DNA of 20,059 bases from the NCBI GenBank assembly GCA_003697105.1, contig RFFQ01000053.1, positions 1 to 20,059 on the forward strand, in the 5' to 3' direction. The translations under genes were made by a program, and so were the position numbers. Source of the DNA: Gemmatimonadota bacterium (lineage in GTDB: Bacteria > 4572-55 > J002). Numbering within the stretch: position 1 is the first letter of the stretch; the number at the start of each line of letters is the position of its first letter. Shown one piece after another: positions 728-20,049 of this stretch. The notes beneath the pieces were generated by a model that did not search any database, was not told where the DNA came from, and saw nothing but the letters and a program-made list of their open reading frames with translations.

Positions 728-753
728 TATCCTGATGAAAAATGAGGGTGAGT

Positions 754-2118
754 ATGAGTCATTTTGCGATTATTGTGCACGGGGGTGCGGGGGATATCCC
801 CGATGACATGACGGCGGCATATCAAGAGGCATGCCGGTGGGCGGTGGAAACAGGTTATGAATGGCTCCGTGAGGGGCGATCGGCACTGGATGCGGTGGAA
901 GCGGCGGTACGTATTTTGGAAGACCACCCAGCCACCCATGCCGGCACCGGTGCCGCTCTGAATCGAGATGGAGACATTCAACTGGATGCCGGTATCATGG
1001 ATGGCTCGAATTTGAAGATTGGCGCTGTAGCCGCCGTTCAGCGTATTGCCAACCCGGTTTATCTGGCACGGCAGGTCATGGAACGCACCCCGCATATTCT
1101 GCTCGCGGGTGACGGTGCGCTTCAATTTGCCCGCCAGATTCACTTCCCCGAGTGCGAACCGGCACACTTAACGACCGAACGGCGTTACCATGAGTGGAAA
1201 CAGATGCACGAGACCGGCAATCTCAGTGCAGAACTCCGGCGGTATCTGGGTGATACGGTCGGTGCTGTTGCCCGGGATACTGCGGGAAATATCGCTGTGG
1301 CGAACTCCACGTGCGGGATTTCGTACAAGTTACCCGGTCGTGTGGGGGATACCCCCCTGCCCGGTAGCGGGTTTTACGCTGATAATCGGGTGGGGGGCGT
1401 GGCATGTACCGGCTGGGGAGAAGCCATTATCCGTACGGCGCTGGCAAAAACCACGCTTGACCTGTTACGAGATTACCAACCGGCTGAAGCCACCCAACGA
1501 GCTATTTATACCTTGCAAACGCAAGTGGGTGGCTTGGGCGGGCTAATTTTGATCGATGCCGCCGGTCACATCTGCTACGATTTTAATACCCCGCGTATGG
1601 CATTTGCCTACCAGTCCGCCAGTATGACCGCCCCGGTAATTGGGATTGACCCCGCGGACAAAATCGATTACCAACCGCGTTACCGGCGGGGTGTCGGGGC
1701 GATCTTGCTCAATGATGCGGGGCAAGTGTTAATCTGCCAGCGTCGCCATAACTCCGGCGAGTGGCAGTTTCCGCAAGGGGGCATGGAACTGGGGGAAACG
1801 CCGCTGGATACCTTCCGGCGGGAAGTATGGGAAGAAACCGGTACGGCGAAAGTTCAACCGCTGTTTCAATTGCCACTGGAGACCCGGTACCTTTGGCCAC
1901 CTGAAAAACGAGCGCAGGAATTCCATGATGGGCAAGTTCACACCTGGATTGTGGGCCGGTTTGAGGGTACGGATGCCGATTTTCATCCGACCGAAGAATT
2001 TACGGCGTTCCGGTGGGTCGATCTGGATCAAATTACCACCCACACCGCTGTGTACCGCCGGGACGTTTACCGGCAATTGATCGACCATCTACGCATGGTT
2101 CGGGAGGGATTCTGCTGA
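754..2118 (+). CDS. Isoaspartyl peptidase/L-asparaginase (Ntn-hydrolase) fused to a C-terminal RppH-like Nudix hydrolase
   Basis: Residues 1 to about 290 are a plant-type asparaginase/isoaspartyl aminopeptidase, which cleaves isoaspartyl dipeptides from damaged proteins and self-processes before a threonine. The predicted nucleophile is T168 in GDTVGAV. R196 and D199 (GRVGD) and T219-G220 (ACTGWG) stand at +28, +31 and +51/+52 from it, the same spacing as T179, R207, D210 and T230-G231 of E. coli EcAIII. Residues 310-450 are a Nudix domain: WQFPQGGMELGETP leads into a full Nudix box at 342-364 (G, E348, RE 356-357, EE 360-361, G363), closest in style to RppH/Ap4A hydrolases. I chose ATG 754 over ATG 742 because GAGG at 744-747 sits 6 bases upstream of it. 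The stop overlaps the next start by one base. The fusion is a single uninterrupted frame and both domains look intact. Confidence 0.85.
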   Translation: MSHFAIIVHGGAGDIPDDMTAAYQEACRWAVETGYEWLREGRSALDAVEAAVRILEDHPATHAGTGAALNRDGDIQLDAGIMDGSNLKIGAVAAVQRIANPVYLARQVMERTPHILLAGDGALQFARQIHFPECEPAHLTTERRYHEWKQMHETGNLSAELRRYLGDTVGAVARDTAGNIAVANSTCGISYKLPGRVGDTPLPGSGFYADNRVGGVACTGWGEAIIRTALAKTTLDLLRDYQPAEATQRAIYTLQTQVGGLGGLILIDAAGHICYDFNTPRMAFAYQSASMTAPVIGIDPADKIDYQPRYRRGVGAILLNDAGQVLICQRRHNSGEWQFPQGGMELGETPLDTFRREVWEETGTAKVQPLFQLPLETRYLWPPEKRAQEFHDGQVHTWIVGRFEGTDADFHPTEEFTAFRWVDLDQITTHTAVYRRDVYRQLIDHLRMVREGFC

Positions 2119-2891: not shown

Positions 2892-2925
2892 AGTGTATTC
2901 TCAAAATATAGTATGGAGGTTGCTC

Positions 2926-4272
2926 ATGTCATCTTTACTTGCCGAAAAATTAACAGAGTTACACAACGCCGGAGTTGCACAGCCGATTTTAGACCGGTTG
3001 AAAACGCATATTGAGACCACGGAACCCTCCGGTTTAATCAATATTTCCCCTTACCGCATGGCAGATGAGTGGAATTTACCGCGGCGGGAGGTTTTGGATG
3101 CGTTTTTGTACGGAACCCGGTTCGGTCTGTTTGATCTGGAATGGCACGTTAAATGTCCTTCCTGCAAAGGTGCAACCGAAAAGAGTAAAGAATTGATGCT
3201 GTTAAAACCGAAATCGCACTGTGAATATTGCCGGATCGATATTCAGGCGGCATTTGATGAAGCGGTGGAGGTGGTCTTTCAGGTCAATCCGAATGTTCGA
3301 GAGTTGGAAACACCGATTCTGTGGGATGACTTTATTGCGTATTGGAAGTTATTTGAGGAAGTGGCGCGTTTTCGGGTCGATCCACATGCGTCGGGTGCGA
3401 TAAACATTACCTTTGAACCGGCGACGTATTACCTGATGGAAGGGACGCATCGCTCCGTGGAAGCATTGACTTTTGAGCCTGATCTGAAAACGGAGACTCG
3501 GGAAATTACGGTGCATTGTGGTCCAGAGGGCATGGAGTATGTTTTCCCCAAATTTTATGAAGCTGGTACGTACACTTTGAAGATTCAAAATGATATGGAT
3601 GAGCCTGCATTGTTTTTGTTGCAACAACAACAGGTTTATCCCTGGATTTCTGGAGCGCAGATAGCTTCCAATCAAAGTTTTCGGGATTTGTTTAGCTCGG
3701 AACTGATTTCCGCCGATGAGAGCTTTTCGGTGAAAAATTTGGTGTTTGTCTTCACGGATATTAAGGGATCAACCGCATTATACGAACGAATCGGGGATTC
3801 ACAGGCGTATCTGATTGTCAAACGTCATTTCCAAATTCTGACAGACACGGTGCGCCAGCATAACGGGGCGGTTGTCAAAACCATTGGTGATGCCATCATG
3901 GCGACCTTCCCCATTTCTACGGATGCCTTCCAAGCGGTGTTGGAGATGCAGCGTGCGTTTGATCAATTCAATTCCACGGGTGAAATTGATCCCCATGAAA
4001 TTATCATCAAAGTCGGTCTTCATCGGGGTCCCTGCATTGCCGTGACATCCAATGATCGGCTGGATTATTTTGGACGCACGGTCAATATTGCGGCGCGGAT
4101 TCAAGGTTTATCCACGGGACACGATGTGATGATGTCTAAGTTATTCTATGATGAACCGGCTATTACCCAACTGGTAGAAGCATCTGGCTGGCATGTTAGC
4201 TTTTCCCAAGCAGAACTTAAAGGGATTGATCGCTTGTACGATGTTGTTCATCTGACGGAACCGGGCAAATGA
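2926..4272 (+). CDS. Class III adenylate/guanylate cyclase with N-terminal DUF5939-like, zinc-ribbon region
   Basis: The protein has 448 residues. Residues 1-75 look like a small helical region (SPYRMADEWNLPRREVLDAF). It is followed by paired cysteines C77/C80 and C99/C102, a likely zinc knuckle, and a beta-rich segment to about 255; this arrangement resembles DUF5939 found before bacterial cyclase domains. The catalytic domain (270-440) has both metal aspartates (D278 in VFTDIKGST, D322 in KTIGDAIMATF), the K318 and D380 positions often linked with ATP specificity, and N387/R391 in the TVNIAARI block. It is therefore predicted active, making cAMP or less likely cGMP. There is no membrane segment. 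GGAGGT at 2915-2920 sets the start at 2926; an in-frame GTG at 2893 has no such site. Its last four bases overlap the next start. Confidence 0.85.
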   Translation: MSSLLAEKLTELHNAGVAQPILDRLKTHIETTEPSGLINISPYRMADEWNLPRREVLDAFLYGTRFGLFDLEWHVKCPSCKGATEKSKELMLLKPKSHCEYCRIDIQAAFDEAVEVVFQVNPNVRELETPILWDDFIAYWKLFEEVARFRVDPHASGAINITFEPATYYLMEGTHRSVEALTFEPDLKTETREITVHCGPEGMEYVFPKFYEAGTYTLKIQNDMDEPALFLLQQQQVYPWISGAQIASNQSFRDLFSSELISADESFSVKNLVFVFTDIKGSTALYERIGDSQAYLIVKRHFQILTDTVRQHNGAVVKTIGDAIMATFPISTDAFQAVLEMQRAFDQFNSTGEIDPHEIIIKVGLHRGPCIAVTSNDRLDYFGRTVNIAARIQGLSTGHDVMMSKLFYDEPAITQLVEASGWHVSFSQAELKGIDRLYDVVHLTEPGK

Positions 4273-11085: not shown

Positions 11086-13194
11086 CTATTTTTTCTCTTC
11101 TTCTTTTTCTTTGCGGCGGCGTTCGACAATCTCTTCTGCCAGCGCATAGGGCACGGCGGCGTAGTGTTCAAAGTGCATGGTGGCGCTGCCCCGTCCAGAG
11201 GTGCTACTGCGAAGTTCGTTGGTATATCCGAACATTTCCGCCAACGGAACCATTGCCTTGACAATTTGCAGGTCACCTTTGGCGGTCATGCCTTGAATTT
11301 GTCCCCGCTTACTGCTCAAGCTCCCGACGACCGTTCCGATATACTCATCGGGGGTGGTTACTTCGACCGACATGATCGGTTCCAGCAGTTCCGGACCTGC
11401 CTTGTGGAAGGCTTCGCGGAAGCACATCGAACCGGCAATTTTGAATGCCATTTCGGACGAATCCACCTCGTGATAGGAGCCATCGATAAGCGTGGCTTTG
11501 ACGTTCACCACCGGATAGCCGGCATAGGGACCTTTTTGCATTGCCTCCAGGATTCCTTTTTCCACGGAGGGGATATACTCTTTCGGGATAGCACCTCCGA
11601 CGATCTGGTTTTCAAATTCAAAGCCTTTCCCCGGGGGCAAATCCTCAAACACGATCACCACATGAGCATATTGACCGCGTCCTCCAGACTGCTTGGCGTA
11701 TTTCAGCGAGTGCTCCACCGTGCGGGTGATGGTTTCTCGATATGCCACTTGCGGTGTTCCAACCTCGGCGACCACATTAAACTCGCGTTTAAGGCGATCA
11801 ATGATAATCTCCAAATGCAATTCACCCATTCCAGAGATGATGGTTTCTCCGGTTTCATCATCAAACCGGACGGTAAATGTGGGGTCTTCATCGGCAAGTT
11901 TGGCCAGAGCAATACCGAGTTTGTCCCGGTCGGCACGGCTTGCCGGCTTGACTGAAACCGAGACCACTGGTGCCGGAAAATCAATTTCTTCCAAAATGAT
12001 CGGATGATCGGGGTCACAGAGGGTATCTCCGGTTAATGTATCAGCCAGACCAATCCCAACCCCAATATCACCCGCAAAGAGTTCATCACGTTCTTCTTGC
12101 TTGTTGGCGTGCATTTGCACAATCCGTCCCATCCGTTGTTTTTTGTCACGCGTCGCATTATACACATAAGAACCCGCTTTGACCGAACCGGAATAGATAC
12201 GAAAATAGGTCATCTTCCCCATGTGTTTGTCGGTCATAATCTTGAATGCCAACGCGGCAAAGGGGGCATCATCACTGGGGTGACGGATGAGTTCTTTGTC
12301 TTCTTCAGGGGTAGAAGGTACCGTTCCGATAATCGGGGGTTTGTCAGAGGGTGACGGCAGAAAGTCCACGATAGCATCTAGCAAACGTTGCACACCTTTG
12401 TTTTTAAAGGCAGAACCGCAGAGCACCGGTACGATGTCGCGGCGAATGGTGGCTTCTCGCAAAGCACGTACGACTTCTTCCTTCGGTGGTACAATATCTT
12501 CCATAAAGAGTTCCATCAGATGATCATCCACTTCTGACGCCTTTTCGATCAAGACTTGTTCCCACTCATGCGCCAGTTCCTTCATATCCTCTGGAATCTC
12601 TTCTTCGTGGTATTTCAGCCCTTTTGTGGCATCATCGTAAATAAGGGCTTTCATGGTGATGAGATCAACCACGCCCCGAAAATTATCTTCTGCACCAATC
12701 GGGATGACCAAGGGCACCGGATTGGCGCCGAGCATGTTTTCAATCTCCTTGACGACGCTGAAAAAGTCTGCGCCGGTGCGGTCCATTTTGTTTATGAAAG
12801 CAATTGCTGGTACGGAATACTTTTCCGATTGCCGCCACACGGTTTCGGATTGCGGTTGCACGCCGGAAACCGCACAAAACAGCCCGATGGCGCCATCTAA
12901 GACGCGCAAACTTCGCTCGACCTCGGCGGTGAAATCCACGTGACCGGGGGTATCAATGATGTTAATCCGGTGATCGCGCCAAAAGGTGGTTGTCGCCGCG
13001 GATGTGATGGTGATTCCACGTTCTTGCTCTTGCTCCATCCAGTCCATTGTTGCTGCCCCATCGTGAACTTCACCGATTTTATGCGTTTTACCCGAATAGT
13101 ATAAAATACGTTCTGTAGTGGTTGTTTTTCCGGCATCAATATGAGCAATAATACCGACATTACGTACTTTGTCTAACGGTACTTGTCTTGGCAT
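11086..13194 (-). CDS. fusA: Translation elongation factor G
   Basis: The 702-residue protein is a full-length EF-G, the GTPase that drives translocation on the ribosome. GTPase motifs are intact: AHIDAGKT (17-24), RGITI (59-63), DTPGH with H85, and NKMDR (135-139), followed by VLCGSAF. Domains II to V follow with conserved blocks such as [14 protein letters not shown] and [12 protein letters not shown], and a charged EEEKK tail. The start at 13194 is fixed by AAGGAG 9 bases upstream and by homology ([12 protein letters not shown]). The longer frame from 13290 would begin inside the promoter. It has its own promoter and terminator, so it is expressed alone, not with rpsG or tuf as in the usual str operon. 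It may be the only EF-G or a second copy. Confidence 0.95.
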
Positions 13195-13261
13195 AACTTG
13201 TAACTCCTTTATTTTGAATGGCTTTTGCGTTATTTCGCCACATGCGAAAAAATGAGGGCAC

Positions 13262-13290
13262 AAAATAGGCTTTTGCCCAAAATTTGTCAA
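13262..13290 (-). promoter_or_regulatory. Sigma70-type promoter of fusA
   Basis: On the minus strand, TTGACA (13290-13285), a 17-base spacer and TATTTT (13267-13262) form a near-consensus promoter. Transcription would start near 13255, giving a leader of about 60 bases. That leader contains a small hairpin (13233-13249, TTTCGC/GCGAAA) before the ribosome site. Confidence 0.82.
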
Positions 13291-13974: not shown

Positions 13975-16900
13975 TTAGCGCAGTAGTACCATCGTGCGCA
14001 CCAAGGTAACTTTTTCGGTTTGTAACTGGTACAGGTATAACCCGCTGTTCACGGGGTGACCTCGATCATCTGTTCCTGCCCAACGGATGGTGTAACTGCC
14101 CGCTTCTTGTGGATCGTCGATGAGGACGGCAACCGGTTGCCCCGAGAGATCGTACACCCTCAGTTTGACATGGCTGCGTACCGGGAGATCAAATGTGATC
14201 GTCGTTTGGGGATTAAACGGGTTGGGGTAATTCTTTAGGGCATAGGCGGTTGGCGTTTGGGTTTGGGGTTGTGCCGGCTCAACGGCAACCATTCCGATCT
14301 GAAATGAGCTTTCCTCGCTCCACATTGATCCGGCAAAAGCATGATCGACTGCCTGAACTGCCCAAAAATAATCACCTTGTGGCAGATTGGAGAGTGTCCA
14401 CGTGAGGTTTTGCCCGACATTCCCAATTGCCACGACCTGCCGATACCCATTTTGCACGTTGGTATGGGGTGCGACGATATTGAACGCCCCGGGCACCGTT
14501 CCCACTCGCAGATTGTAGCTAAGGGCAGCGGCGGGTGTTTCTGCATCGGTTGCCGGTTGCCACTGGAGGGTGACATCGGTATCACTCGATGCGGCGGTGA
14601 GGTCGGTGGGTGCGGAGGGGCGTTCATTCGGTTCAGCGCCGTCATTCCGGTAAATTTTGCTGGTGGGGGTTGTGCCTGCCAAGCCGGTGAGGAGGATATC
14701 CAAATCACCGTCACGGTCAAAATCTGCCCACGCCACGGCGCCGGTTTGGACATCCACAAAATTGGGGTCTATTTCGGTGAACGTGCCATTACCTTCATTG
14801 TGAAACAGCCGCGACGTCGGTAGTACCAACGTATTGCTACCCGTTAAGGCAATATCAAGCCATCCGTCGTTATCAAAATCCCCCCATTGGGCAGAACTGG
14901 CACTCACCGGAGTCAACTCCGCCCCTATATCGATAAATGCACCGTTGTCATTGCGGTAGATTTTCGCTTGCCCGATGGTAAACGCATTGCCGCCGGTGAG
15001 CAAAATATCAAGGTCTCCATCGTTATCAACATCACCCCAATCGACTGAACTTCCGTTGACTCCGATCAATCCCGCGTTTATCTCCGTGAACGTATCGTTG
15101 CTGTCATTGCGGTAGAGTTTGGTGACCGAATCGTAGGGCGGGAAGGCGTTATCCTTGATGTTGCCGGAAAGCAGAAGGTCGAGGTCGCCATCATTATCAT
15201 AATCTCCCCAAGCGACATCACTTTGATAGACGGGTTGCAGTTCAATATCACTTTCGTGAAAGGTATCGTTACCATCATTGCGGTACAGGGTGGTGGTGAA
15301 GATATAGGGGTCGAATATACCACCGGTTTCCACCAGTCCGCTCAGGAGGAGGTCGAGGTCGCCGTCGTTGTCGTAATCTCCCCAGGCGATTCCGCTTTGA
15401 TTCACGGGGATGAGTCCGGCTTCAATATCGATAAACGTTCCGTCATCGTTGCGGTAGATGGCACTGATCCGGCCATCTGCTCCCATACCGGTTAAGGCGA
15501 GGTCAAGGTCGCCATCGCGATCATAGTCGCCCCATGCCACGTCACCCGCACTGACCGCGGGGAATCCCGCATCTATATGGACAAAATCCCCGTGGTCATT
15601 CCGGTAAAGGAGGGTTACTGGATTGTTGGTAGCAGTGGTGCCGGTCAGGACAAAATCCAGATCGTCATCTTGATCATAATCGCCCCAAGCTACGGCGCTG
15701 TTGCTGACGCCAGTGATTTCCGCACCGGTATCCCGGAAAGGGTAGGCGTTGGAGATTGTGATGTAAAACGTATCAATGGGTGCGAAAGCAGAGCCCATCA
15801 GGCTTTGATCGAGGGTTTGGACGCTCCAAACATAGGAGCCGGTCGGTAGATTTTCCAGCGTGAAATGGCGTTCATGTCCCCGATTGCCGGGGCGAACGAC
15901 CTGTCTCCAGCCGGTGGCGGGGTCTGCCATGCCGGAAAGTAAAGGCTCGCCGTCACTCGTGTGGAGGTAGATGTTGTATGTCAGGGCAGGGAGGGGTGTT
16001 TCGGCATCCGAGCCTGCGCTCCATGAGAAGGTAACATTATCCTCCTCGATGTTGGCATTGATGGCGGAAGGGGGTTGGGGTAACTGATTTTCAGCGACAC
16101 CTTCATTGCGGTAAATACGGGTGATGCGGCTAAACAGATTGAGATAGCCACTCAGTAAGATGTCCAAATCGCCGTCATTGTCGTAATCACCCCATTCACA
16201 CGCGGAATTACGCAGGTTGGGCAGACCGGTATCCAGTTCGGTAAATTGATCATTACCTTCGTTTAGATAGAGTTTTGTTGTGCCGGTCACAAGCCCGTCA
16301 TTTCCGGTGATGAGGAGGTCTAAATCGCCGTCGTTGTCCACATCTCCCCATTTTCCGTCACCACCGGAAATACCGGTGAGATTTGCTTCAATATCGATTA
16401 AACTACCGTTATCGTTGCGGTAAATTTTGGAGATCATCGTGAGGGTTGTATCTAATCCGGCGAGGAAGAGATCGAGGTCACCATCGGCGTCGTAATCTCC
16501 CCAATCGAGGGCACCGAACTGTACCGGTTCTAAACTGACTGTGATATTGGGCACATAAACCCCTAACAGGTTGGTATAAAGGATGGAAACCGGGGTTTGA
16601 TCGAGCAAATTGAGTCCGGTGAGCACGATATCGAGGTCGCCATCGGCATCATAATCTCCCCAAGCGGCGGCGGAGTTCAGCACGGGCAGGAGTAACGCGT
16701 TGGTGTCGGTAAAGATATGGTCTCCTTCGTTGCGGTAAACTTTGGCATTAATAGCGAGAGAATCGCCAAAACCTGCCAGCAGGACATCAAAATCGCCATC
16801 GCCATCATAATCGCCCCATCGTGCCTCACCCAATTGGGAGGGTTCTAGGGTAATGCCGGTTTCGGTCAATCCGCTGTAAATGCGGGTGGTTGGGGTCAAT

Positions 16901-17235
16901 CCGGCGAGTCCGGTGAGGAGGATATCTAACTGCCCGTCATGATCAAAATCCACCCAATCGACGGAACCGGCGGCGGTATTTTCTAAATCTGCGTTGATAT
17001 TGACAAAGCTATCGTTGTCATCATGGCGATAAATGCGAGTGGTTGGGGTTAGGGGCAGGATTGTGGTTGTGCCATTGAGCAGAATGTCCAGATCGCCGTC
17101 ACTGTCATAATCACCCCAGCAGACATCGCTGTTTTGAACCCCGACAATGCCCGGGTCCACTTCGGTGAAGGTTTGGGCAAACAGGAACACCGGTAAGAAA
17201 AACAGAAAACTTCCAATACAAATGGATTTGAACAT
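13975..17235 (-). CDS. Secreted VCBS/FG-GAP repeat protein with two seven-repeat blocks, two Fn3-like domains and a type IX sorting domain
   Basis: The 1086-residue protein starts with a Sec signal peptide (hydrophobic 8-19, likely cut after A20). Seven repeats with the core WGDYDxDGDLDxLLTG lie at about 40-376, then an Fn3-like domain (386-495), seven more repeats (517-865), a second Fn3-like domain (872-980), a short PT/Q-rich linker and a C-terminal sorting domain (998-1086) beginning LKNYPNPFNPQTTITF and ending in VLLR. The DxDxDG cores are calcium-binding loops like those of integrin alpha-chain propellers. Seven repeats per block predict one seven-bladed propeller each. The C-terminus is the type recognised by the type IX secretion system, so the protein is probably exported to the surface. 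No catalytic domain is visible; a binding or adhesion role is inferred. GGAGGT is five bases before the ATG. Confidence 0.9.
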   Translation of the reverse strand: MFKSICIGSFLFFLPVFLFAQTFTEVDPGIVGVQNSDVCWGDYDSDGDLDILLNGTTTILPLTPTTRIYRHDDNDSFVNINADLENTAAGSVDWVDFDHDGQLDILLTGLAGLTPTTRIYSGLTETGITLEPSQLGEARWGDYDGDGDFDVLLAGFGDSLAINAKVYRNEGDHIFTDTNALLLPVLNSAAAWGDYDADGDLDIVLTGLNLLDQTPVSILYTNLLGVYVPNITVSLEPVQFGALDWGDYDADGDLDLFLAGLDTTLTMISKIYRNDNGSLIDIEANLTGISGGDGKWGDVDNDGDLDLLITGNDGLVTGTTKLYLNEGNDQFTELDTGLPNLRNSACEWGDYDNDGDLDILLSGYLNLFSRITRIYRNEGVAENQLPQPPSAINANIEEDNVTFSWSAGSDAETPLPALTYNIYLHTSDGEPLLSGMADPATGWRQVVRPGNRGHERHFTLENLPTGSYVWSVQTLDQSLMGSAFAPIDTFYITISNAYPFRDTGAEITGVSNSAVAWGDYDQDDDLDFVLTGTTATNNPVTLLYRNDHGDFVHIDAGFPAVSAGDVAWGDYDRDGDLDLALTGMGADGRISAIYRNDDGTFIDIEAGLIPVNQSGIAWGDYDNDGDLDLLLSGLVETGGIFDPYIFTTTLYRNDGNDTFHESDIELQPVYQSDVAWGDYDNDGDLDLLLSGNIKDNAFPPYDSVTKLYRNDSNDTFTEINAGLIGVNGSSVDWGDVDNDGDLDILLTGGNAFTIGQAKIYRNDNGAFIDIGAELTPVSASSAQWGDFDNDGWLDIALTGSNTLVLPTSRLFHNEGNGTFTEIDPNFVDVQTGAVAWADFDRDGDLDILLTGLAGTTPTSKIYRNDGAEPNERPSAPTDLTAASSDTDVTLQWQPATDAETPAAALSYNLRVGTVPGAFNIVAPHTNVQNGYRQVVAIGNVGQNLTWTLSNLPQGDYFWAVQAVDHAFAGSMWSEESSFQIGMVAVEPAQPQTQTPTAYALKNYPNPFNPQTTITFDLPVRSHVKLRVYDLSGQPVAVLIDDPQEAGSYTIRWAGTDDRGHPVNSGLYLYQLQTEKVTLVRTMVLLR

Positions 17236-17494: not shown

Positions 17495-17517
17495 AAATCG
17501 ATCTTGACAATCGATTT
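17495..17517. promoter_or_regulatory. Perfect 8-7-8 inverted repeat over the -35 box (operator candidate)
   Basis: AAATCGAT (17495-17502) and ATCGATTT (17510-17517) are exact reverse complements. The seven bases between them include the whole TTGACA (17504-17509) of the ParA operon promoter. A protein bound here would block RNA polymerase, so autoregulation by ParA or the RHH protein is likely. A related palindrome, AATCGATT, lies at 13305-13312 between the fusA and trpG promoters. Confidence 0.6.
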
Positions 17518-17573: not shown

Positions 17574-18398
17574 ATGGCATGTCGGATAATCGCATTTGTA
17601 AATCAAAAAGGGGGCTGTGGAAAGACGGCGACAACGGTCTCTGTCGGGTCTATTTTAGCGGAACGTGGCAAAAAAGTGCTATTGGTTGATGGTGATCCGC
17701 AACAACACACAACGTTGAGCGTTGGGGTCAACCCGTATCGCATTGAGCATTCCTTGTATGAGGCGATGCTAGACCCCCGCCAATTTGGCTACGAAAAAGT
17801 TCGGGTTAAGACAGCGTATGAGAATCTTGATTTGTTACCCGCCACGGATAATTTGTATGCCGTGGATTTGGATTTAGCCAGCGCCATGAACCGAGATGGG
17901 CGGATGGAGCGGTTGCTCAAACCTGCCATCCGGCACTATGATTATATTTTGATTGATTCCCCGCCGGCGCTTTCGCTCCTGACCATTAATATTTTGAATG
18001 CCGCCAAAGAGATTTTTATTGTGTTGCAAGCCCATCCGCATAGTTATTTGGGTTTGGAGATGCTCCTCCAAACGGTGGAGCAAGTCAAAGAAAATATCAA
18101 CCCCAAATTACGTATCACGGGCTTAGTATTGACGATTTTTGATACTGGGACGAATGTCTCTAAACGGATTCAAGAAAAGGTGCAATTGGATGATCGGGTT
18201 TCGGAATTTTTATTTCAAACGGTGATCCGGAAAAATATCACCCTTGCCAATTCCACAATGGCGCTAGAAGAAGAATATGAGGGAGTGCCGGTCTTTTTGG
18301 GTAAACCGATCAATCATTATGACCGGCATAGTAATTCTTCCAAAGATTATCATAAATTAGTTGACGAAATTATTCAGATGGAACTTGATGGTTCGTAG
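17574..18398 (+). CDS. ParA/Soj-family partition ATPase
   Basis: The 274-residue protein has the deviant Walker A box QKGGCGKTATT (11-21) with signature K12 and catalytic K17, the switch I region LLVDGDPQQHTT (36-47) and Walker B YILIDSPP with D128. Its end (GVPVFLGKPINHYDRHSNSS, then KDYHKLVDEI) also follows Soj-type ParA. Such ATPases dimerise on ATP, bind DNA non-specifically and move plasmids, chromosomes or other cargo. There is no N-terminal helix-turn-helix, so it resembles type Ib or chromosomal ParA rather than P1-type. AAGGAG is 9 bases before ATG 17574; the in-frame GTG 17523 lies in the promoter. No ParB with a helix-turn-helix is seen; instead an RHH protein and an unknown protein follow in the operon. 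Confidence 0.88.
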   Translation: MACRIIAFVNQKGGCGKTATTVSVGSILAERGKKVLLVDGDPQQHTTLSVGVNPYRIEHSLYEAMLDPRQFGYEKVRVKTAYENLDLLPATDNLYAVDLDLASAMNRDGRMERLLKPAIRHYDYILIDSPPALSLLTINILNAAKEIFIVLQAHPHSYLGLEMLLQTVEQVKENINPKLRITGLVLTIFDTGTNVSKRIQEKVQLDDRVSEFLFQTVIRKNITLANSTMALEEEYEGVPVFLGKPINHYDRHSNSSKDYHKLVDEIIQMELDGS

Positions 18399-18435
18399 CG
18401 TTTTCGGATTGATGAAATAAGAGAGGGTTTTGAGA

Positions 18436-18714
18436 ATGTCGCGTAAGTCTGGAAAATCCCAGTTTTTTGCTGGCGACCAGTATGATGAAGATGAATTTAT
18501 CCGGGTGAATTTCACCCTCCAAAATCGACAGATTGACTTTTTAAGCGATTTCTGCTATAATGTGCGAAAAGAGACTCGTTATAAATTGAATCGTTCGGAA
18601 ACGATTCGGGCTTGTATTGAGGTCATTCAAGAAAAAGTGGATGAGGGGTCACTCAAGTTTGAAGATGTTCGTAGTTTTGAAGACCTTAAAAATTTGCTTC
18701 ATGGTCATTTTTAA
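18436..18714 (+). CDS. Small ribbon-helix-helix (RHH) DNA-binding protein, possible ParG-like partner
   Basis: The 92-residue protein has a short basic then acidic N-terminal tail (1-21), a strand RVNFTL (23-28), a helix around 30-43 and a second helix beginning NRSETIRACIEVIQE (52-66). This pattern, with SETIR at the start of the second helix, is that of RHH (MetJ/Arc) domains. An unusual 16-residue charged stretch lies around the turn between the helices. In type Ib partition systems an RHH protein of similar size binds the centromere and represses the operon, so this is the probable DNA-binding partner of the ParA ATPase. GAGGG is 8 bases before ATG 18436; the TTG at 18430 is too close to it. 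The assignment is by pattern only. Confidence 0.62.
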   Translation: MSRKSGKSQFFAGDQYDEDEFIRVNFTLQNRQIDFLSDFCYNVRKETRYKLNRSETIRACIEVIQEKVDEGSLKFEDVRSFEDLKNLLHGHF

Positions 18715-18744
18715 CTCCATCAGGTGGTTTATAGGGGGCTTTGA

Positions 18745-20049
18745 ATGAGTCAAACATCGGAAATTTTATCAGAATGTTGGGAACACGTCCATAGTATTCG
18801 GGAATGTGTCAATGACCTGAGTGAAGAATCTTCGCTGGCGATTGCGGCCCAACGCCTTAAAATTATCTCCAAACGATTGCAGATGGAGATGAACACCATC
18901 GCCAAAAATCAGCAGAATTCCACGTATGAAGAACAATTTTCGTTGCTCGGGCAGGTCGTCCATAATTTGCAATTAATTGTGGATAATAAAAAGTTAGAAA
19001 CTATAAATAAGGCATTTTTTATCAGTGCTTTAGCGAATATGATGCAGGAATTTATGGACCCTGATTCTTTATCCGGCAAACTGTTTAATATGCAGAAGGC
19101 GGGCAATTATGAGATGGGCTATCTCAAATTGGAGACCTTCCGAAAATGGTCAACGGCGGCAGTTTCAGACCTTGGTAAAAATGGGGTCATGGTGATGCGA
19201 GACCTGACTACAAACGAGTGGAATGTTCATGCTTTTGGGGAGATTTCGCTCGGACAGACCATTGGTGCCTATGGTTTTGAACCGGTGGAGCAGGAAGAAT
19301 TCGTGGAAATATTTAAATCCATGATTTGTGAAGGATTAGCCGGTAACATCGTGCTCAATGAACCCGCCGGTGCCATGGCGGCGATTGATGATGCCCCGGC
19401 AGTGATTGCCGATCAGTTTGAGAAGATCGAAAAAGCACTTCGTGAAATTGAAAATTTGATGGAATCCTTCCCTGAGTTAGCGACTTCCGGTGTTCTCAAA
19501 CGGTTGAACCGGTTGCGCTACCGGTTGGAAATGGAGTTGTACTCCATTGCAGAGATTGAAGCCGGTGCCGGTGGAGAATTTGGTGGCGGGGTGAGTTTAG
19601 CCGACCAGATTATTGAAAATACAATTTTCATTCTGGATATTGGTAGTGCCACGAATGAAGATAAAGTCTCTTTGATTGCGGCGCTCTCTGGGATTATGTT
19701 GGAATTCACGGATTCGGCAACGTTTCCGGATAAACTCATCGGATTTAATGCCGTTGATGACAAAAAATTACAGGGATATGTCAAATTTGATTCTCTGGCG
19801 GAATGGTTTGCTTCCCGTAATGTGGAAACCAGCGATTATGGGGTGATGATGCTCTATTCCATCGATCATCAAGATTGGGATATTCATTATTTAAGCAAAA
19901 TGCAACTCCAAAACGCGATCAATTCGTATAATTTGGACAAGCTGCATCGGGATGAGATTCTGGGTAAATTTTCTAATTTCTTGACGGATGGGTTGAAGAT
20001 GAAACAGAGTACCATTAAAAAGCGTTTCCAACAATTGAACTTGATTTAA
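18745..20049 (+). CDS. Unknown protein built from two diverged copies of one domain, third gene of the ParA operon
   Basis: I do not recognise this 434-residue protein. It is an internal duplication: residues 125-198 and 344-417 align without a gap over 74 positions with 16 identities (GYxK, W, GVM, W, H, L, Y, EGL/DGL) and many conservative changes. The upstream helices also correspond (AAQRLKIISKRLQMEMNTIA at 34-53 and VLKRLNRLRYRLEMELYSIA at 250-269). Each half is a helical segment followed by a mixed strand and helix segment. A glycine/alanine-rich link (about 199-220) joins them, and a basic tail ends the protein. No signal peptide, membrane segment or known motif is seen; it looks acidic and cytoplasmic. 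AGGGGG is 6 bases before the ATG. It lies 30 bases after the RHH gene, so it is probably an effector, cargo or adaptor of the ParA system. Confidence 0.75.
   Translation: MSQTSEILSECWEHVHSIRECVNDLSEESSLAIAAQRLKIISKRLQMEMNTIAKNQQNSTYEEQFSLLGQVVHNLQLIVDNKKLETINKAFFISALANMMQEFMDPDSLSGKLFNMQKAGNYEMGYLKLETFRKWSTAAVSDLGKNGVMVMRDLTTNEWNVHAFGEISLGQTIGAYGFEPVEQEEFVEIFKSMICEGLAGNIVLNEPAGAMAAIDDAPAVIADQFEKIEKALREIENLMESFPELATSGVLKRLNRLRYRLEMELYSIAEIEAGAGGEFGGGVSLADQIIENTIFILDIGSATNEDKVSLIAALSGIMLEFTDSATFPDKLIGFNAVDDKKLQGYVKFDSLAEWFASRNVETSDYGVMMLYSIDHQDWDIHYLSKMQLQNAINSYNLDKLHRDEILGKFSNFLTDGLKMKQSTIKKRFQQLNLI

Follow-up and report, generated by a model that had tools for sequence, protein, structure and literature searches.

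The analyzed DNA (the window) comprises one whole contig (C120; 20,059 bases) of a 4.18-Mb genome which is assembled in 199 contigs. At its right end, three genes are arranged head to tail on the + strand. The first, parA (17574..18398), starts with an ATG at 17574 after AAGGAG and encodes a ParA/Soj-type ATPase of 274 aa. It is followed, after 37 nt, by the gene of an RHH-like partner protein (18436..18714, ATG at 18436; 92 aa) and, after a further 30 nt, by gene 3 (18745..20049, ATG at 18745 after GGGGG), encoding a protein of 434 aa with two diverged copies of a domain of about 200 aa. Each of the three genes is preceded by a plausible ribosome site. According to the ORF calls, the gene order, motifs and ribosome sites are present as the first-pass annotation had described them.

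The contig, and with it the window, stops 10 nt past gene 3. An overlap of 63 bases (1 mismatch) between this end and the beginning of contig C91 led to the inference that the two contigs are joined. Apart from this overlap, gene 3 occurs as a single copy in the genome. On C91, a hairpin (about -15.5 kcal/mol) with TTTTT is located directly 3' of gene 3, while no terminator-like hairpin was found between the genes of the cassette. The hairpin is followed by an acyl-CoA dehydrogenase gene and the nuo operon. Upstream, the window carries genes for an FG-GAP-type repeat protein (on the opposite strand), a class-I glutamine amidotransferase and EF-G, as well as asd and ExbD/TPR genes. Gene searches and reading of the translations, covering 17 kb on the upstream and 16 kb on the downstream side, revealed no recognizable genes for replication, transfer or integrases. 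Carboxysome, chemotaxis or flagellar genes were recognized neither in the window nor in the 16 kb that follow it. The asd, fusA and nuo neighbors, the lack of recognized mobile-element genes and the hairpin after gene 3 indicate a chromosomal three-gene operon, which appears to end with gene 3. The chromosome-like setting near fusA and asd that had been noted before is thereby established and extended by the nuo genes downstream. With G+C contents of 0.45 (parA), 0.39 (RHH-like gene) and 0.43 (gene 3), the cassette lies at the low end for its neighborhood, which mostly shows 46-57%.

Several other genes of the window deserve mention. The gene adjoining the operon (13975..17235, - strand) encodes a 1086-aa FG-GAP-like repeat protein, named by inspection, whose C-terminal sequence resembles that of T9SS-sorted proteins. 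The EF-G encoded at 11089..13290 (- strand) is up to 65-66% similar to that of several other genomes, whereas the best EF-G of the only class-mate reaches 59%. Since the class-mate is less similar and a further strong EF-G match exists in the genome, it is probably a paralogue. EF-G similarity turned out to be a poor guide to kinship; in two small phyla picked by it, no ParA of the window type was found at the cut-offs used. An ORF at 742..2118 fuses Asparaginase_2 and NUDIX hydrolase domains, and a protein with DUF5939 and an adenylate/guanylate cyclase catalytic domain is encoded at 2893..4272. At the left end of the contig (1..80), CGCACACACCGGTGCGCCCCTAC occurs twice in direct orientation; this may be a dispersed repeat at which the assembly broke off.

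By its sequence, the product of parA is a ParA ATPase of the Soj/ParA superfamily. It shows the deviant Walker A motif NQKGGCGKT with the signature lysine, a Walker A' motif (LLVDGDPQ) and a Walker B motif (YILIDSPP), and it matches the Pfam family AAA_31 with E=5e-51. Among the PDB chains, those of Soj are matched with E about 1e-38, the ParF chain only with E=6e-6. The protein begins 11 residues before KGGCGKT and has no N-terminal HTH domain; lacking such an extension, it does not belong to Type Ia (P1/F). It is not the only ParA-type protein of the genome. A canonical mnmG-rsmG-parA-parB locus lies on contig C60, and the beginning of its rsmG holds a perfect parS (TGTTTCACGTGAAACA); a MinD-like protein is encoded on contig C59. 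The separate parAB-parS, for which the first-pass annotation had suggested a search, is thus present, and the ParA of the window is an additional one. Its locus contains no ParB (PF02195), no parS and no mnmG-rsmG context and is distinct from a canonical parABS. The comparison set includes one other genome of the phylum, which has a single ParA, its Soj.

The closest relatives of the window ParA were found on plasmids. Among 72,556 plasmids, the best matches were three Bernardetia plasmids of 35-51 kb (44% identity, E about 1e-67), well separated from the remaining listed matches with E=9e-49 or weaker. In the phylogenetic tree, the window ParA and the Bernardetia ParAs form one clade with a support of 98/98. 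They have a C-terminal insertion in common which none of the other ParAs in the comparison, among them the Soj of the same genome, possesses. The Walker A motif differs: the Bernardetia proteins (L011, L012 and L016) read NQAGGVGKS, so that the signature lysine is replaced by alanine, which is unusual for ParA, whereas the window ParA keeps NQKGGCGKT.

On these plasmids, parA is followed by a gene for a protein of 107-112 aa, which is homologous to the 92-aa protein of the window (BLASTP E=4e-8). In the genome G272 (L015:116-1697), the gene of a ParA with 44% identity is immediately preceded by that of a resembling partner, and this RHH-like protein is extended at its C-terminus by what looks like a coiled coil. 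ATPase and partner thus travel together in the window, Bernardetia and G272, which supports a functional pair. By inspection, the 92-aa protein is RHH-like, with a strand (IRVNFTLQ), a long helix A, an NRSE turn and a helix B. It had no significant match in Pfam (RHH models included), NCBIfam, PHROGs or PDB, and comparing the RHH set as a profile with the RHH partner of Geobacter gave no significant result. An RHH fold is therefore suggested, not proven, by this motif and by the homology to proteins which are themselves unannotated. The downstream position and the size of the gene fit a small type Ib centromere-binding partner. Taken together, the sequence comparisons support that the ParA-RHH part is of a known kind, a type Ib-like partition pair, here located on a chromosome. 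The first-pass annotation had described a type Ib-like cassette with an added third gene and a possibly new partition system. The homologous Bernardetia cassette bears out the ParA-RHH pair but has no third gene, and as far as ParA and RHH are concerned, the system is already known from these plasmids.

Upstream of the cassette, at the parA promoter, we identified a perfect inverted repeat, AAATCGAT-N7-ATCGATTT (17495..17517), with 8-nt arms around a TTGACA. It is a candidate for an RHH operator or a minimal centromere. When the 338-nt upstream region is shuffled, about 4.6% of the shuffles contain a comparable perfect inverted repeat, and for this reason the repeat alone is weak evidence. The copy at the promoter is the only perfect one in the genome. 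With 1-2 mismatches, 8 near matches were found elsewhere, compared to 1 for the reversed control. The three near-match loci inspected had no common context, and one site is located within a coding ORF; a centromere made up of several such sites is therefore not claimed. For type Ib systems, centromeres of direct and inverted repeats located in front of the operon have been described (PMC5016525). Upstream of the window parA, no direct-repeat array was found but only the one inverted repeat. At the same position, two of the three Bernardetia plasmids carry a perfect inverted repeat of different sequence and the third an imperfect one.

The two domain copies of gene 3 correspond to about residues 1-199 (18745..19341) and 219-422 (19399..20010). 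Aligned with each other, the halves score 183 over about 198 residues, while shuffled sequences gave 33.6 +/- 5.9 with a maximum of 66 in 1000 shuffles. The resulting z of about 25 confirms the tandem duplication proposed in the first-pass annotation. The identity between the halves is about 22%, with 46 identical positions. From its sequence, the protein is computed to be acidic (pI 4.8) and soluble. Two AlphaFold runs gave low-confidence models with a mean pLDDT of 38 and 50. Read independently in a low-confidence model, the secondary structures of the two halves agree with each other, with helices followed by a beta-beta-alpha-beta-beta-alpha order and, in one version, one more alpha. Fold searches with the pLDDT-50 model returned chance-level matches only (best Foldseek E 0.2; best Z 7.9, for a designed helical protein). 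In view of the low pLDDT and these matches, no fold is claimed.

Gene 3 had been described as belonging to no nameable family, and indeed Pfam, NCBIfam and PHROGs gave no significant match. The profile search proposed for its domain retrieved no relative from any collection searched. None was found in its own genome, in 116 and then 386 whole genomes, in the plasmids at E<=1, or in viral contigs, here by protein and by two-domain profile; PDB chains showed no sequence similarity by profile, and a counterpart is also missing from the other genome of the phylum in the comparison set. A pattern scan of GTDB r220 was also negative, but such scans reach close relatives only, so that the absence of distant ones is not demonstrated. 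The Bernardetia cassettes contain neither a third gene nor an unannotated ORF fit to be gene 3.

From these findings we tentatively favor, with a little less than even confidence, a plasmid-type, type Ib-like ParA-RHH module on the chromosome which has gained a third, accessory gene. The RHH protein would bind the inverted repeat at the parA promoter, which could repress the operon, form a single nucleoprotein site, or both. Its N-terminal tail might stimulate nucleoid-bound ParA-ATP, as ParG does with ParF. More speculatively, the product of gene 3, soluble, acidic and with two like domains, might act as an accessory factor, most likely as a two-site adaptor that links the RHH/ParA complex to a protein cargo or to a further site on the DNA. 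The operon-like gaps of 37 and 30 nt, the ribosome sites and the hairpin only after gene 3 argue for the module. So do the 98/98 clade, the common insertion and the homologous downstream partner, and likewise the genome's own parABS, the chromosomal neighbors, the lower G+C content of the cassette and the SegAB precedent. Against it count the lack of a direct-repeat centromere, the patternless near matches, the absence of gene 3 from the closest cassettes, the lack of a Pfam RHH match and the low pLDDT of the models. The only tie of gene 3 to ParA-RHH is the shared operon structure. The earlier proposal that the third gene belongs to the same system is therefore supported by the spacing and the hairpin but not by the Bernardetia cassettes. 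Since these lack gene 3 and no relative was found in the collections searched, a new three-component system and an adaptor role like that of McdB or ParP are inferred rather than observed. A new family of tandem-domain adaptors, with gene 3 as its first known member, would in a scarcely sampled phylum have made a chromosomal positioning machine of three parts out of the plasmid-type ParA-RHH partition pair; this reading seems unlikely.

It is also conceivable, though somewhat unlikely, that the locus is the relic of an integrated plasmid, either a captured ParA-RHH cassette without a present cargo or an incompatibility factor. In the latter case it would resemble ParI, which is encoded on a genomic island as an orphan ParA (PMC9178275). 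As part of such a relic, gene 3 would be a passenger or of local origin. The plasmid location of the closest cassette, the lower G+C content and the missing repeat array fit for a centromere are consistent with such an origin, as is the other genome of the phylum with its single ParA and no gene 3 counterpart. A relic is harder to reconcile with three intact frames, conserved ATPase motifs and surroundings (17 kb upstream, 16 kb downstream) without recognized replication, transfer or integrase genes. Moreover, the domains of gene 3 are far diverged and yet retain 46 identical positions, which implies long selection.

A working ParA-RHH module which gene 3 merely follows, without a functional relation, is quite unlikely in our view. 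Its absence from the Bernardetia cassettes and the lack of any relative or co-occurrence in the collections searched are in keeping with this, but the 30-nt gap, the ribosome site of its own and the position of the terminator-like hairpin after, not before, gene 3 point the other way. Very doubtful is the positioning of a protein cargo, in which ParA moves the gene 3 protein or its bound partner and RHH serves as operon repressor only: it would agree with the separate parABS, the sole inverted repeat at the promoter, the soluble, modular gene 3 protein and the findings that ParAs with a cargo of their own are common, that more than one third of bacterial genomes contain several ParA/MinD ATPases and that in one organism each of five was shown to serve one cargo (PMC10241942), but the neighbors (nuo, FG-GAP protein) name no cargo, and an RHH-like partner accompanies this type of ParA on plasmids without gene 3, so that RHH looks like the ancestral partner.

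What is new here is the combination of the parts and the orphan gene 3: a plasmid-type ParA-RHH pair on a chromosome which bears its own parABS, and a new protein with an internal duplication that is encoded in one operon with the pair. Comparative support is limited to the ParA-RHH part. If gene 3 encodes an adaptor, the locus would illustrate the way in which a partition motor gains a cargo that is new to it.

Among the known systems, McdAB, PpfA and ParC-ParP share with the window locus a second ParA on the chromosome and a possible protein adaptor. In contrast to these, the locus has an RHH-like DNA-binding partner and no carboxysome or chemotaxis genes nearby; beside parA, no cargo or adaptor genes of a known kind were recognized in the window and the 16 kb that follow. 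The AspA-ParB-ParA operon of pNOB8 is also a three-protein partition operon, in which one member bridges the other two (PMC5120986), but AspA is a winged-HTH protein, ParB a Spo0J/CenpA-like chimaera, and the gene order is different. SegAB is a chromosomal pair of a ParA-type ATPase and an RHH protein, which binds palindromes upstream of its own operon (PMC5120986, PMC9178275), and the window locus also has a ParA-type ATPase with an RHH-like partner and an upstream palindrome. However, SegAB is a chromosome-segregation machine of archaea, whereas the window genome has a canonical parABS besides. ParF-ParG-parH of TP228 and delta-omega of pSM19035 likewise combine a ParA without N-terminal HTH with an RHH partner which has a short N-terminal tail. 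In the window, ParA is Soj-like and longer, and the locus is chromosomal, with a third protein gene and no repeat centromere seen. The parFGH locus was rejected as a three-gene precedent, since parH is described in its paper as the centromere site, not a gene. Closest is the Bernardetia cassette (NZ_CP147019, NZ_CP147021, NZ_CP147013), which shares the gene order, the 44%-identical ParA with its C-terminal insertion, the homologous partner of about 110 aa and an inverted repeat upstream of parA, although of another sequence; it consists of two genes on small plasmids, whereas the window locus has three genes on a chromosome.
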